The translations under genes and the position numbers were made by a program. From Planctomycetota bacterium (GTDB lineage Bacteria; Planctomycetota; Phycisphaerae; Phycisphaerales; SM1A02), in the NCBI GenBank assembly GCA_022563315.1, contig JADFNO010000016.1, positions 1 through 37,731 on the forward strand: a stretch of 37,731 nucleotides of DNA, in the 5' to 3' direction. Of this stretch, positions 2,928 through 37,731 are shown piece by piece. Every line of letters begins with the position of its first letter. Within the stretch, counting starts at the first letter, position 1. The notes under the pieces are model-generated. The model made no database searches, was not told the DNA's origin, and saw nothing but the letters and a program-made list of their open reading frames with translations.

Positions 2928-4250
2928 TCATGGGCACGGTCCCCAGTTGGCGAGCAAGAAGAGCATATCTTTCACGCCAACAGTGCCGTCGCCGTCGAAG
3001 TCGGGTGGTCCGCCGGGATCGGTGCCCCATGCGCCGAGCAACGCCAGCAGATCAGGCACACCGACCGAGCCGTCGCCGTCGATATCCCAGGGACACTGCT
3101 TGGCCGGTTCGCATGATTGGTTGATGAGCACCGATAGATTGTTCGAGTCACGATTAGCCACAGCAATGTCCGGATCGCCGTCGCCGTCTACATCAGCCGT
3201 GGTGATTGCGCCCGGCCGCGTTCCGGCTCCCATGAGCGTTGGAGGTGCGAAGACTCCGCCGCCGAGGTTCTCCAGGAAGGAGACGTTGTTCGAATCCTGG
3301 TTCGTAACCGCGATGTCGATCGCACCGTCGCAATCGAAGTCGGCCGCCGTGACCTTGTTGGTTCCCTGACCGCCTGTATCGAAGCTGAAGGGCCCGGTGA
3401 ATCCTTTGCCGGTATTGATCAGGACGGCTATCTGATTGATGTTGAACGTCTGATCGTCAACCGCGACCGCCAAGTCATCGGCACCATCTCCATCCAGATC
3501 GGCGGCGACAATGCCGTCCGGCCGTACGAATGGACCAAGCGAGTAGATCGTCGAAGGAGCGAACACACCGCCGTTGTTGGTGAATGTCGCTACCGTCCGA
3601 TCATCGTGAATTGTGACTGCCAAGTCGCGGTCGCCATCGTTGTCGAAATCGACGAAGGCGGTCGCTCGGGGCTCGTTACCGGCAAAGAAGGTTGAGACGG
3701 TGAATAACCCTCCGCCGGTGTTCGTCAGAACGCTGACCGTGTTGGCGTCGCGGTTGGCGACGGCCAGATCGAAGTCGCCGTCATTGTCCATATCAGCGAT
3801 GGCCAAGCCGCGCGGGCGGTTACCGACAATGATGCTCCCGCTCATCATGAACGATCCACCGCCGGTATTGAGCATGATCAGCACTAATCCTTGCGGGTCA
3901 CGGACAGCCACGGCCAGGTCAACGCCGCCCTTTCCGTCCAGGTCGCCGGCAACAAGATCCTGTGGCGAAGACGAGTTGGGCAGGAATGTGGTGGGGCCGA
4001 GCGTATACTGTCCCGAACCATTATTGAGAAGGACGATAATGCGATCAGGATCATCGACGGTCGTAGCAAGATCTATATCGCCGTCGTTGTCGAAATCCCC
4101 GGCAGCCACACCACTTGGCCGGTTGCCAACTGGATAGTTTGTCGCCGGATCGATTAGGATTTGGGCGTGGGCCGAGGGAACCGTGAGCTGGAGGCTTGCG
4201 ACCACCGCCAATCCGGCAAGATGAAGGATTGTTTTCGTTTGCGTATGCAT
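2928..4250 (-). CDS. Secreted FG-GAP/VCBS-repeat protein with dockerin-like tail
   Basis: Secreted, 440 residues. A signal peptide (residues 1-29, hydrophobic core LHLAGLAVVASLQL, cleavage after AHA) is followed by about seven FG-GAP/VCBS-type repeats of roughly 50 residues. Each repeat has a calcium-binding loop such as DFDNDGDIDLA, DMDNDGDFDLAVA or DVDGDGDPDIAVA, which together should fold into a seven-bladed beta-propeller. The C-terminus has two dockerin-like repeats (DIDGDGSVGVPDLLALLGAWG and DFDGDGTVGVKDMLFLLANWG). No catalytic residues are recognised, so it is probably an adhesion, binding or surface-scaffold protein. It stands alone: the upstream operon on the same strand is closed by a hairpin at 4406-4435. 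The ribosome-binding site is weak (AAAGAGAA). Confidence 0.85.
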   Translation of the reverse strand: MHTQTKTILHLAGLAVVASLQLTVPSAHAQILIDPATNYPVGNRPSGVAAGDFDNDGDIDLATTVDDPDRIIVLLNNGSGQYTLGPTTFLPNSSSPQDLVAGDLDGKGGVDLAVAVRDPQGLVLIMLNTGGGSFMMSGSIIVGNRPRGLAIADMDNDGDFDLAVANRDANTVSVLTNTGGGLFTVSTFFAGNEPRATAFVDFDNDGDRDLAVTIHDDRTVATFTNNGGVFAPSTIYSLGPFVRPDGIVAADLDGDGADDLAVAVDDQTFNINQIAVLINTGKGFTGPFSFDTGGQGTNKVTAADFDCDGAIDIAVTNQDSNNVSFLENLGGGVFAPPTLMGAGTRPGAITTADVDGDGDPDIAVANRDSNNLSVLINQSCEPAKQCPWDIDGDGSVGVPDLLALLGAWGTDPGGPPDFDGDGTVGVKDMLFLLANWGPCP

Positions 4251-4405
4251 CGTTGATTCTCTTTGTTGAGGTGACGAACTTCCAGGGGGAGGACAAAGTC
4301 AAACCGAATGACTTTTTCCACTCAATTGAGGGATGCAACGACCCACGCGATACAAATAAACGAGAGATTTTAGCTACGATTCTCTGCCCCTTAGCGCAAC
4401 AAACG

Positions 4406-4465: not shown

Positions 4466-5980
4466 TTAGCCCCAGTTCCCCAGAAGGATCAGTAGATCAG
4501 GGACGCCGACTAGGCAATCGCCATCGAGGTCTGCCGGGCAGAAGTGGCAACTGTCACAGGGGCCCCAATTACCGAGCAAGGCAAGTAGATCACTGACGCC
4601 AACAGTGCCGTCGATGTCGATATCGCCCAACGTGGGAGCCACAGGACCAAGCAAGACCGCAGCACCGATGTCAATGCGCCCTGCCCCGAGCATTCCCTTG
4701 AAGCCAGGGTTCTGCGCGTCAATGTTGACCGCTGTACTTACCAAGGCATCCTCGACGGTGTTGTAGATGAACTCGAAATCCTGCTTCGGCGGATGCTCGG
4801 GATCCCACTCCGGATGCTGCGCTCGAATGAGCGCGATAGCGCCGGAGACAAACGGTGTGGCCATGCTCGTGCCTTCCCAATAGGCAAAGCCGCCACCCGG
4901 AATGGTGCTGGCGATCGATCGGGCCGGATCGAACTGTCCCGGCTTACCGCCCAGCAGCGTACTGTCGCCGGGAGCGCTGATGAACGTGTTGGCATGGTAG
5001 TTACTGAAGTCGGCCTTGACATCCTCATCGTCAGTGGCGACCACACCGAACGCTTGGCTGATCTGGGCGGGATGTTCTCGACATTCGGCAGCCTCGTTGC
5101 CCGCAGCGCCGACGACCACAATGCCCAGCGCCTTGGCCTCGTCAATCGCGGCCTCGAAGGCGTTGGGGCGATACGTTGTGCCGACACTCGCGTTGATCAC
5201 CTCGGCACCTTTGTCGATGGCGTAGTAGATGCCTTTGGTTATGATCCAGATGTCACTGCGGCCATCGGGATTGAGCACAACCACCGGCAGGATTCTGACA
5301 TCCGGCGCGACAAGGCTGACAAGACCGGCGACGTAGGTTCCGTGTCCAACCTGCTCGTCGATAAGCCCGTCGCCATCGTTATCCAGACCGTCGCCCACAT
5401 CATCCGTGTTGGTGGTGTTGTTGATGAAGTTGAAGCCGTTGCCCAACACGCGACCCGAAAGCGCAGGATGCGAGGCATCGACACCGGTATCGAGCACCGC
5501 CACCACTACGCCAGCACCCGTTGACAGCTTCTGCGCAGGCAGAATCCCCATCAATTCAACCGGATACTGATTGGCGTAGATCACACCACCACCGCCGATG
5601 ATGTTGAACCAGAGGCTTCCTGATCCGCCTTCGGCCGTTTCGACCTCGTAACCAAAATCGGACCAGTCAGTCAGGCCAGGGTAGTTCGGGAGGTCCTCTT
5701 CTAACAGGTCGAGCACCGCAGGCGGCAGGCCGGGCGGCCCGAGCAGAAGAAGATAAGCGTCACGCGATTCGATCGAGTCGACGACCTTGAGCGTAATTTC
5801 GTGCTCGATGTGAGTTGCCTCAAAAGCGGCGATGAACTGCTCGATGGAGGCCCCATCCGACACACCGACCATGATCCGGTCGGGCACCCGCGGGTCGTCT
5901 TGTGGGCAGTCACCGGCCGACGCAAGTTGTACCAGGCAGAGACAAGAAAGAGCGGCGATAAGGATGGGTAAAGTCTTCAT
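4466..5980 (-). CDS. Secreted S8 (subtilisin-like) serine protease with dockerin-like tail
   Basis: Secreted serine endopeptidase of 504 residues. The signal peptide covers residues 1-22 (cleavage after ASA). An N-terminal extension of about 130 residues, plausibly an inhibitory propeptide, precedes the S8 domain. The catalytic triad and oxyanion residue are intact: Asp164 in AVLDTGVD, His213 in GHGTYVAGL, Asn295 in GAAGNEA and Ser372 in GTSMATPFVSG. A calcium-loop-like insert (DGLDNDGDGLIDE, about 198-209) sits just before the catalytic His. The C-terminus (about 452-504) has two dockerin-like repeats joined by a CDSCHFC linker. Its ATG overlaps the stop of the CHAT gene (ATGA), so it is the translationally coupled last gene of the sigma/anti-sigma/CHAT operon and is likely one of that operon's effectors. 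Family assignment is firm; the substrate is unknown. Confidence 0.93.
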   Translation of the reverse strand: MKTLPILIAALSCLCLVQLASAGDCPQDDPRVPDRIMVGVSDGASIEQFIAAFEATHIEHEITLKVVDSIESRDAYLLLLGPPGLPPAVLDLLEEDLPNYPGLTDWSDFGYEVETAEGGSGSLWFNIIGGGGVIYANQYPVELMGILPAQKLSTGAGVVVAVLDTGVDASHPALSGRVLGNGFNFINNTTNTDDVGDGLDNDGDGLIDEQVGHGTYVAGLVSLVAPDVRILPVVVLNPDGRSDIWIITKGIYYAIDKGAEVINASVGTTYRPNAFEAAIDEAKALGIVVVGAAGNEAAECREHPAQISQAFGVVATDDEDVKADFSNYHANTFISAPGDSTLLGGKPGQFDPARSIASTIPGGGFAYWEGTSMATPFVSGAIALIRAQHPEWDPEHPPKQDFEFIYNTVEDALVSTAVNIDAQNPGFKGMLGAGRIDIGAAVLLGPVAPTLGDIDIDGTVGVSDLLALLGNWGPCDSCHFCPADLDGDCLVGVPDLLILLGNWG

Positions 5981-35150: not shown

Positions 35151-35642
35151 ATGGCTTCCCACAAACCTAAACAATCCAGCGAAGCCAAAATCGAGAATCG
35201 CAAGGCTCGGTATCAATACCACATCCAGGACACGCTCGAATGTGGCATCAAGCTCATCGGCACCGAAGTCCGCTCCGTCCGCAACGGGCAGGTGAGCCTG
35301 GCCGAGGGATATATCCGAGCCACCGAGGTTCCGCCCACCCTGACGCTGCACGGCGTTCACATCGCTGAGTATGCCCCCGCCGGCCCGCTCCAGCACAACC
35401 CCACTCGGGTTCGAACCTTGCTCGCCCACCGCCGGGAGATCCGAAAGCTCGCCGACCGGACGCGCGAAAAAGGCGTGACGATCCTCCCGCTCAAGATGTA
35501 CTTCCTCCGCGGTCGCGCCAAGCTCTTGATCGGGATCGCCCGGGGCAAGCGCCGCGCCGACAAGCGAGACGATCTCGCCAAGCGACAGGCCAAACGCGAT
35601 ATCGACCGCGCCATGTCCCAACGACTCCGCAAACGCGGATAA
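35151..35642 (+). CDS. smpB: SsrA-binding protein SmpB
   Basis: Binds tmRNA and delivers it to stalled ribosomes for trans-translation. At 163 residues it matches the family. The conserved core is intact: KARYQYHIQDTLECGIKLIGTEVRSVRNGQVSLAEGY-like block at about 18-54 (key residues Y22, E30, G37, E39, S42, R44), HIAEYAPAG, RTLLAHRREIRKL and a basic tail (GKRRADKRDDLAKRQAKRD) that enters the mRNA channel. No ssrA gene is seen in the window. Converges on recQ across a palindrome flanked by direct repeats. Confidence 0.95.
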   Translation: MASHKPKQSSEAKIENRKARYQYHIQDTLECGIKLIGTEVRSVRNGQVSLAEGYIRATEVPPTLTLHGVHIAEYAPAGPLQHNPTRVRTLLAHRREIRKLADRTREKGVTILPLKMYFLRGRAKLLIGIARGKRRADKRDDLAKRQAKRDIDRAMSQRLRKRG

Positions 35643-35653
35643 CGTAGCCGCCA

Positions 35654-35791
35654 TTCTCAACTTTCGGCGGCGCAGGGAAAAGAAAAAAAAGAAAAGGAAA
35701 AAAGAAAAAAAAGAAAAGGGGACAGGCTACTTTACTAGTAAAGTAGCCTGTCCCCTTTTTCTCACCTTTTTCTCAACTTTCGGCGGCGCAG
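35654..35791. repeat. 22-bp direct repeat bracketing an inserted palindrome
   Basis: The 22 bases at 35654-35675 (beginning TTCTCAACTTTCGG) recur exactly at 35770-35791. The second copy encodes the last residues and stop of recQ. Between them lie 94 bases made of a purine-rich A/G tract and a 46-bp perfect palindrome. The layout resembles an insertion with target duplication or a slippage product. Confidence 0.8.
35714..35759. terminator. 46-bp perfect palindrome between convergent smpB and recQ
   Basis: Each 23-nt half (core GGGGACAGGCTACTTTAC) is the exact complement of the other, centred on ACTAGT. A T run follows on the plus strand and an A-rich tract precedes it, so the structure could terminate transcription from both sides. 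It also has the look of an REP-type element. Confidence 0.75.
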
Positions 35792-37731
35792 CGCACGCGC
35801 AGATGCGCTGCGACGATGCGGATGGTCTCGTATGAAACCTGCTCGTCCAGATGCTCGAAGATCGGGCGCAACGCGTCCATCCCCACCGCATCGATCGCCG
35901 CCGAGACTGTGTCATACGTTCGTTGATCGACCCACGTCGCAACACTAGACGGTTTGTGCACCTCGATGTATTGCTCGAGATAGCCGGACACCGTGCTTTG
36001 GGCTCGCTTGGTCGCCGCCGCCGCCACGTCAATCGTCGCACCGTCGCTGAACATCTTCATCGCCTTGTCCCGCTGCGGGTTCGGCCGGCTGTTCTTGGGC
36101 ACCACAATGGCCGGTCCGCTTAGACCGGTCCCCGCCTGATCCATCTCCAATTCATTTTCCGCGCAGTAGGTAACGATCGCGGCCAGGAATCGCGGCCCCA
36201 GATCAGCGAGCTTCTTCTCACCCACGCCGTGAACGTCTCGAAAGGTCTGCGGTGTGCTTGGACGAATACGCGCCATTGATCGAAGCGTCGCATCGCCGAA
36301 AATCACATAGGCCGGCACCGCGCGCTCCTGCGCGATCTCTTTTCGTACATTCCGCAACGCTTCAAACAATCCACGATCAACCCCCTCCCACGAATCCCCC
36401 GCCGCTTGCGGCTTCGCGCCTCCCCCCACCTGCGGATCAACCAACTGCACTTCCTCTTCACCCCGCAGCACCGCCCCTGCGGATTTGCTCGGCGCAAGCA
36501 CCGGACGGTCGCCGCCCGTACGATCAATCAGCTCCAAATCAATGAGCTGATACACGAGATTCAGAACAACCTTCTCTCCAAGGTCTTTGAGCAATCCATA
36601 CGTGCTCAGTTGATCGTGCCTCCACTTGCGGATCGCTTCGGTGTTCGCGCCCCGCAAGATGCCGGCAGTATGTACGACACCCATGCGCTGATCCATCAAA
36701 TCCAGCCGCGCGACACACGAGAGTATCTTGCGGGCGATCGCGGTCGAATCGGCCATGGACTCGACCTCGCCCAGGCACACATCGCACGCTTTGCAGTCGG
36801 GCGATTCGTACGCCTGTCCGAAATATTGCGACAGCGCTCGATGGCGACATTGCAACGTGCTGCACAATCCCTGCATGTGACCCAGTAGCTCCGATTGGGC
36901 GGCGACGATCGCTTGGGAATCCGCGTCCTCAGCTTCTTCGGCACTGCGCTCAAACAGGCGCGTCCATTTCAGGAAATCGGCTGCGGAATACAACATCACA
37001 CACTCAGCCTCCAGGCCGTCACGTCCGGCCCGCCCCGTCTCCTGTTGATAGTGCTCGACCGACTTGGGCATCGCTGCGTGAATAACGCAGCGCACGTTCG
37101 AGCGATCGATCCCCATGCCGAAGGCGACGGTGGCGACGATCACGTCGAGCCGGTCGGCCGCAAACTCGTCCTGTGTGTTGCGCCGTTGATTCCTGTCCAT
37201 TCCCGCGTGGTAGGCCGCCGCGTTGATCCCGTTGGCATTCAACACCGACGCCAAGGTCTCCGTGTCGTTGCGCGAGATGCAATACACGATCACCGCTTCC
37301 TGCGGATGCCTGCGGATCACCTCGATGACTTGCGCGTATAAATCGACCCGAGGCAGGATTCGATAGCTCAGGTTCGCCCGATCGAAGTTCCCCACCAACA
37401 CCTCGGGGTCGTCGAGCTTCAGTTGCTCGATGATGTCGCTGCGGACGCGCGGCGTCGCGGTGGCGGTGTAGGCATGAACACTCACGGCGCCGAAGCGCTG
37501 CTTGAGCATGGCCAGTTGGCGATACTCCGGGCGAAAGTCGTGCCCCCAGTGGCTGATGCAGTGCGCCTCGTCGATGGCGAACGCCGTCACGCCCAGCCGT
37601 TTGACCAGGTCGATGAACGATGCCGTGACCAGGCGCTCCGGCGAAACGAACAGCAACCGCACTTCCCCTGCGTTGAGTCGATCGAAGACGACACGTTTTT
37701 CGGATGCGTCAAGATTGCTGTGGATCGCCTC
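35773..37731 (-). CDS. recQ: ATP-dependent DNA helicase RecQ, 5' part outside the window
   Basis: DNA helicase in recombinational repair; 652 C-terminal residues are present and the N-terminus with the Walker A motif lies beyond the right edge (the frame is open to 37731). Visible helicase motifs are AIDEAHCISHWGHDFRPEY (motif II and aromatic loop), SVHAYTATATPRVRSDI (III), VIVYCISRNDTE (IV), VIVATVAFGMGIDRSNVRCV (V) and QETGRAGRDGLEAEC (VI). The RecQ-C-terminal zinc site uses the Cys residues in CRHRALSQYFG and CKACDVC. An HRDC domain (EIAQERAVPAYVIFGDATLR then FRDVHGVGEKKLADLG) follows. After it a helix-turn-helix extension (about the last 100 residues, TIDVAAAATKRAQSTVSGYL) is present, as in some bacterial RecQ proteins. 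The stop lies within the second copy of the 22-bp direct repeat. Confidence 0.95.
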   Translation of the reverse strand, partial: EAIHSNLDASEKRVVFDRLNAGEVRLLFVSPERLVTASFIDLVKRLGVTAFAIDEAHCISHWGHDFRPEYRQLAMLKQRFGAVSVHAYTATATPRVRSDIIEQLKLDDPEVLVGNFDRANLSYRILPRVDLYAQVIEVIRRHPQEAVIVYCISRNDTETLASVLNANGINAAAYHAGMDRNQRRNTQDEFAADRLDVIVATVAFGMGIDRSNVRCVIHAAMPKSVEHYQQETGRAGRDGLEAECVMLYSAADFLKWTRLFERSAEEAEDADSQAIVAAQSELLGHMQGLCSTLQCRHRALSQYFGQAYESPDCKACDVCLGEVESMADSTAIARKILSCVARLDLMDQRMGVVHTAGILRGANTEAIRKWRHDQLSTYGLLKDLGEKVVLNLVYQLIDLELIDRTGGDRPVLAPSKSAGAVLRGEEEVQLVDPQVGGGAKPQAAGDSWEGVDRGLFEALRNVRKEIAQERAVPAYVIFGDATLRSMARIRPSTPQTFRDVHGVGEKKLADLGPRFLAAIVTYCAENELEMDQAGTGLSGPAIVVPKNSRPNPQRDKAMKMFSDGATIDVAAAATKRAQSTVSGYLEQYIEVHKPSSVATWVDQRTYDTVSAAIDAVGMDALRPIFEHLDEQVSYETIRIVAAHLRVRCAAES

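Follow-up and report, generated by a model that had tools for sequence, protein, structure and literature searches.

Long direct repeats around a TIR dimer at the 3' end of a recQ-like gene in a Planctomycetota bacterium

The junction of smpB and a recQ-like gene

We analysed a window of 37,731 bp from a Planctomycetota bacterium (GCA_022563315.1, contig JADFNO010000016.1; contig C260 within assembly G000). Here smpB on the plus strand and a recQ-like gene on the minus strand converge on a small element with the following features.

35151-35642, plus strand: smpB (Pfam SmpB, 164 bits; NCBIfam PRK05422/smpB), convergent, ending 11 bp before repeat copy 1
35654-35675: direct repeat, copy 1 (distal), 22/22 identity
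35674-35717, plus strand: unbroken 44-nt purine tract reaching the GGGGACAG tip
35678-35719, plus strand: tandem copy inside the purine tract, AAAAGAAAAAAAAGAAAAGG at 35678 and 35700, period 22
35714-35759: 46-bp perfect palindrome, formed by two TIRs joined at their tips (AAAAGGGGACAGGCTACTTTACT and its complement), matching the TIRs of the C75 Y1 element
35718-35730, plus strand: TIR core GGGGACAGGCTAC, left arm
35743-35755, minus strand: TIR core GGGGACAGGCTAC, right arm
35756-35775: short tandem copy at the right tip, TTTTTCTCA at 35756-35764 and 35767-35775
35770-35791: direct repeat, copy 2 (gene-proximal), holding the recQ stop
35773-37662, minus strand: recQ-like helicase (Pfam Helicase_C, RQC, HRDC and HTH_40), reading towards the element; start uncertain, 5' end perhaps cut by the window

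An earlier note on this DNA had described a perfect 22-bp repeat enclosing a purine tract and a 46-bp palindrome, with the recQ stop inside the second repeat copy, and our analysis bears out this description. The two copies of the 22-mer TTCTCAACTTTCGGCGGCGCAG are identical at 22 of 22 positions and lie 116 bp apart, start to start. Of the 94 bp separating them, the purine tract takes up about 38, the palindrome 46, and other sequence 10. Both arms of the palindrome are 23 nt long, without a spacer and with 100% complementarity, and the recQ stop is the TCA (plus strand) at 35773-35775.

Exact direct repeats of at least 18 nt numbered three in the 37.7-kb window. The 22-mer pair was the longest, the others being a distant 18-mer and a 20-mer with a 22-bp period within the purine tract. 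A whole-window scan likewise placed the palindrome first among perfect hairpins (arm 23 nt; runner-up arm 12 nt). RNA folding of the hairpin gave -39.9 kcal/mol, whereas shuffled sequences averaged -17.3 (z = -6.9) and none of 200 was as good. Together, these scans place the repeat and palindrome well beyond chance.

On the recQ strand the purine tract reads as a pyrimidine- and T-rich tail, such that hairpin and tail plausibly form a putative recQ transcription terminator. A terminator scan returned two matches against a shuffle mean of 1.0, a weak signal when taken alone. Palindromes of this kind favoured convergent gene pairs (45 of 101 classified sites vs 95 of 397 gaps of at least 40 bp; p = 6.7e-5), with 25 of 126 surveyed sites left out as lying at a locus edge or inside an ORF. 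The ORF caller was crude and labelled the window site 'tandem', as a longer overlapping reverse ORF displaced smpB. This label was ruled out by the Pfam matches, which give convergent genes.

The palindrome and related transposase elements

To place the palindrome within its genome, 251 bp around the window site were used to search G000, a 3.76-Mb draft of 298 contigs. Related sequence was found at two further places, on contigs C147 and C75. The C147 site is a second palindrome without a gene. On C75, inverted copies (AAGGGGACAGGCTACTTTAT and its complement) lie 693 bp apart and flank a 220-aa Y1_Tnp protein (54.9 bits); these TIRs are 20 bp long and perfect. The sole NCBIfam match of this protein was REP_Tyr_transpos, at 75.4 bits just below the cutoff of 80. 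Residues N59-H60 and Y120 were invariant across seven aligned proteins, while the second H of the HUH motif was present in the C75 protein and replaced in one homologue. A C-terminal extension of about 95 residues follows, and beyond Y1_Tnp no Pfam match was obtained at E <= 5.

In G000 there are six exact copies of the core GGGGACAGGCTAC, two each at the window site, C147, and C75. As its arms match the TIRs of the C75 Y1 element, the window palindrome is, on sequence grounds, a pair of TIRs of a C75-type element joined tip to tip without the gene. Gene-less dimers with the exact core are few in G000: two (C260 and C147), besides the C75 element.

A genome_contigs scan covering 84,980 species, one genome per species, recovered short palindromes with the same core in at least 118 genome stretches, which span many phyla. 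Record titles among the matches listed included Elusimicrobia, Omnitrophota, Planctomycetota, relatives of Geobacter, Sulfurospirillum, Desulfotomaculum, Aminicenantes, and others. A literature search with the 13-mer core returned nothing relevant, only unrelated human-genetics papers.

Among known systems, the closest likeness is to RAYT-like genes flanked by long TIRs. Di Nocera et al. 2013 term these genes 'TIRYT' and the units 'TIRtrons', give the TIR motif as GGGGWSAS, and note TIR dimers and clusters (PMC3733652). The C75 element is such a Y1_Tnp gene between long TIRs, and the window site is the dimer form without the gene. GGGGACAG in both window arms agrees with GGGGWSAS, and gene-less TIR dimers are likewise dispersed in the genome, albeit few in G000. 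Quentin et al. 2018 assign most TIRYTs to subclass 2.1 (PMC6006769). A helix-turn-helix/DnaA_C-like C-terminal extension is expected for this subclass; the extension of the C75 protein gave no Pfam match at the threshold above.

REP/REPIN sequences with RAYT (TnpA-REP) share small intergenic palindromic dimers, a related Y1 transposase, and a terminator-like character with our elements. They differ in that here two TIRs pair with each other. Relative to REPs of the GTAG type, the window unit lacks an unpaired GTAG foot with its own hairpin, and GTAG instead lies inside the paired stem. IS200/IS605 members share the Y1/HUH transposase domain and hairpin-forming ends, but the elements described here have long TIRs.

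A sister insertion with an empty counterpart

The C75 site has the layout of the window at an unrelated gene: a repeat copy, a purine tract, the element (here full-length), and a second repeat copy at the 3' end of a minus-strand gene. Its purine tract, 59 nt long, lies against the left TIR, and its flanking direct repeat is 24 nt when exact or 33 nt at 91% identity. The right copy forms the 3' terminus of a gene of the arginase family. In G000 the left copy runs on as the unbroken end of this gene does in the congener G066, and the right copy runs on into new sequence. This is the layout expected for insertion with target duplication.

In G066 the C75 flanks abut with a 28-bp overlap, leaving a single copy with neither tract nor element. 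This empty site indicates that about 28 bp were duplicated at C75. The two C75 copies differ from each other at one base, and both carry a C where G066 and a second congener, G037, have T, a pattern that copying of one from the other within the G000 lineage would produce.

The history of the site is not simple. At this arginase-gene end G037 also carries the element (92% over 2.5 kb), without the tract and with another left neighbour, which leaves the order of events unfixed. Identity between G000 and G066 was about 97-98% to the left of the C75 site, 92% to the right, and 82% in the right-hand stretch 4200-4400. This step in identity hints at recombination nearby. For the empty site of the C147 copy, only the left flank was matched in G066.

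The recQ junction itself could not be followed in the same way. Neither congener gave an smpB match, G066 gave no recQ match, and the G037 recQ match ends after residue 331. With the smpB-recQ junction absent from both congeners, the recQ empty site was not seen. In tblastn searches of other family members, recQ adjoined smpB at none of 29 smpB loci (L048-L076), out of 91 other genomes with a match. The earlier note had proposed either an insertion at recQ that duplicated its target or slippage driven by the palindrome. The palindrome is the product of a mobile element, and C75, with the same layout and a single-copy empty site in G066, lends indirect but good support to an insertion with target duplication.

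At the G037 recQ locus (L260; G037:C169, around 2557), RecQ identity was 98% up to residue 331, after which the frame continues as a protein that we take to be NuoE-like. This join may be a true gene fusion, but a misjoined contig is more likely.

Origin of the repeat and purine tract

We surveyed 126 distinct palindrome sites in loci L100-L217, 110 of which had full 200-nt flanks. Flanking exact repeats were at most 12 nt at all sites except L184 (Geomonas paludis), where a 26-nt repeat is part of paired 110-nt dispersed repeats. At that locus (4529-4848), the two copies of this other dispersed repeat, 110 nt each and 93% identical, enclose a TIR dimer. Purine runs against the tip reached at most 16 nt at the 126 sites, compared with 44 nt at the window and 59 nt at C75. 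Seven other palindromes in G000, G037, and G066, representing five loci when judged by their flanks and excluding the window, had repeats of 6 to 8 nt. Across 30 Y1 loci, C75 included, a flanking repeat longer than 13 nt was present at C75 only, with TIR boundaries set by a simple script and uncertain in several cases. Long direct repeats as a general feature of these elements were therefore rejected by both surveys.

The purine tract was similarly restricted. A search pattern of 25 purines ahead of the core matched one of 181 family genomes, namely G000, at exactly the window and C75. Purine runs of at least 32 nt numbered three in G000: the window, C75, and one in an acid-rich reading frame. 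The combination of tract, repeat, and element is thus present at two sites in one genome and rare elsewhere.

We hold it to be probable, with moderate confidence, that a gene-less TIR dimer, moved by a C75-type transposase, inserted at the recQ 3' end and duplicated about 22 bp. The C75-type Y1 transposase of the same genome would mobilise the dimer, and roughly 22 bp of target would be duplicated as it inserts. The recQ gene would retain its own end, and the second 22-bp copy would stay on the far side. The purine tract by the left tip would have arisen at or after insertion, as short units of tip and flank were copied in tandem. Y1 enzymes act by cutting and joining single strands. Since no larger duplications are known for IS200/IS605 members, duplication would need an added step. 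This might be strand transfer into a gap with staggered nicks, which is then filled, or alternatively primed synthesis that would also build the purine tract. Weighing against an insertion with duplication are the rarity of repeats longer than 13 nt in the element family (126 sites and 30 Y1 loci) and the hint of recombination at C75.

Such a duplication would set these two sites apart from related systems. One account states that IS200/IS605 members make no larger target duplications (PMC2817692); the 22 bp at recQ and about 28 bp at C75 differ from this only if the repeats arose at insertion. Relative to TIRYTs and TIRtrons, the difference lies in a 22 to 28-bp flanking duplication together with a long purine tract at two sites. 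The main text of PMC3733652 contains neither 'target site' nor 'duplicat', and no report of such duplications for TIRYT/TIRtron was found in searches of the open-licence literature. The element at recQ adds a copy to a known kind, its unusual trait being a long target duplication that is probably linked to insertion.

Alternatively, the dimer may have inserted without duplication, as is usual for Y1 elements, and its hairpin may later have caused replication to switch template or slip, copying the gene end to the far side and lengthening the purine tract. We regard this as rather unlikely, although several observations fit it. The 20-mer tandem copy lies within the purine tract, and nearly all of the other palindrome sites are without a long direct repeat. 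Short tandem copies whose start coincides with a TIR tip were found at 5 of 249 ends elsewhere, compared with 0 of 409 T-run control starts (p = 0.0076), suggesting that copying of this sort takes place close to the tips. With a looser criterion, tandem copies near tips were not enriched (7 of 228 ends vs 0 to 8 of 228 at five control offsets). General enrichment near tips was accordingly rejected, and the test passed only for exact-tip starts. Short tandem copies similar to TTTTTCTCA at the right tip of the window were also present at C147 and G066:C231. Against template switching, a simple tandem duplication would copy the element too, such that a second step would be needed, for example loss of one palindrome. 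A further argument against it is that two unrelated genes share one layout, their 3' ends coinciding with the repeats (22 and about 28 bp).

An assembly or binning fault, in which the C75 and C260 contigs were misjoined at low-complexity purines and the repeats are join artefacts, appears improbable. G000 is a 298-contig draft and alone among the 181 family genomes yielded tract and core in the pattern search. The one-frame join of recQ to a NuoE-like sequence in G037 indicates that faulty joins may occur in the genus, and the unequal divergence of G066 on the two sides of C75 would also fit. Yet the two C75 copies differ at one base while sharing a base absent from both congeners, the tract sequences differ between the window and C75, and flanking genes run on sensibly on both sides. 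That the palindrome is an ordinary intrinsic terminator beside a coincidental 22-mer is scarcely credible: it is terminator-like on the recQ strand, but its core recurs in at least 118 stretches of other genomes and forms the TIRs of a Y1 element in G000, the 22-mer is the longest exact direct repeat of the window, and the sister insertion at C75 contradicts this reading.

In the most far-reaching reading, a Y1/HUH (RAYT-like) family would, in at least one planctomycete-type lineage, insert with 22 to 28-bp target duplications and build a purine tract at one end. We consider this reading doubtful. If true, single-strand insertion would be completed via a long staggered gap or by primed tandem-copying synthesis, a completion step not known for this transposase superfamily. 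If the site is instead ordinary, it offers a clear case of a TIR dimer positioned as a terminator-like hairpin behind a gene. To our knowledge, few mapped empty sites exist for RAYT-type insertions. Two insertions with matching long duplications, one of them with an empty site, provide a concrete junction for working out the mechanism. The spread of REP-like palindromes is described in PMC8266576 as still poorly understood.

Several further arrangements of TIR sequence were observed. Several Y1 genes (L294, L299, L280, and L282) have arrays beyond their TIRs in which TIR-tip sequence is repeated along with a few site-specific bases. Similar palindromes at L093, L095, and L096 (G037 and G066) are built from a second TIR subtype, GGGGACATTCTAC; the same variant of this subtype is present on both arms in L093 and L095, with one mismatch in L096. 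A Y1 gene with GGGGACATTCTAC-type TIR occurs at L275. At L261 (G000:C147, 12157-12244), a ACCACAGATGAACACAGATGGACACTGATGG-type sequence lies beside the C147 palindrome; G037 and G066 contain many dispersed copies of this repeat. Finally, close to contig ends, one sequence beginning GAATGCCATGTAGTTAAGCGGCAAGTTGC starts within or immediately behind the TIRs of two distinct Y1 elements, at L079 (G000:C151, about 3937-4089) and at L301 (G000:C78, after the right TIR). It probably represents another mobile element, one with TIR palindromes as its target.
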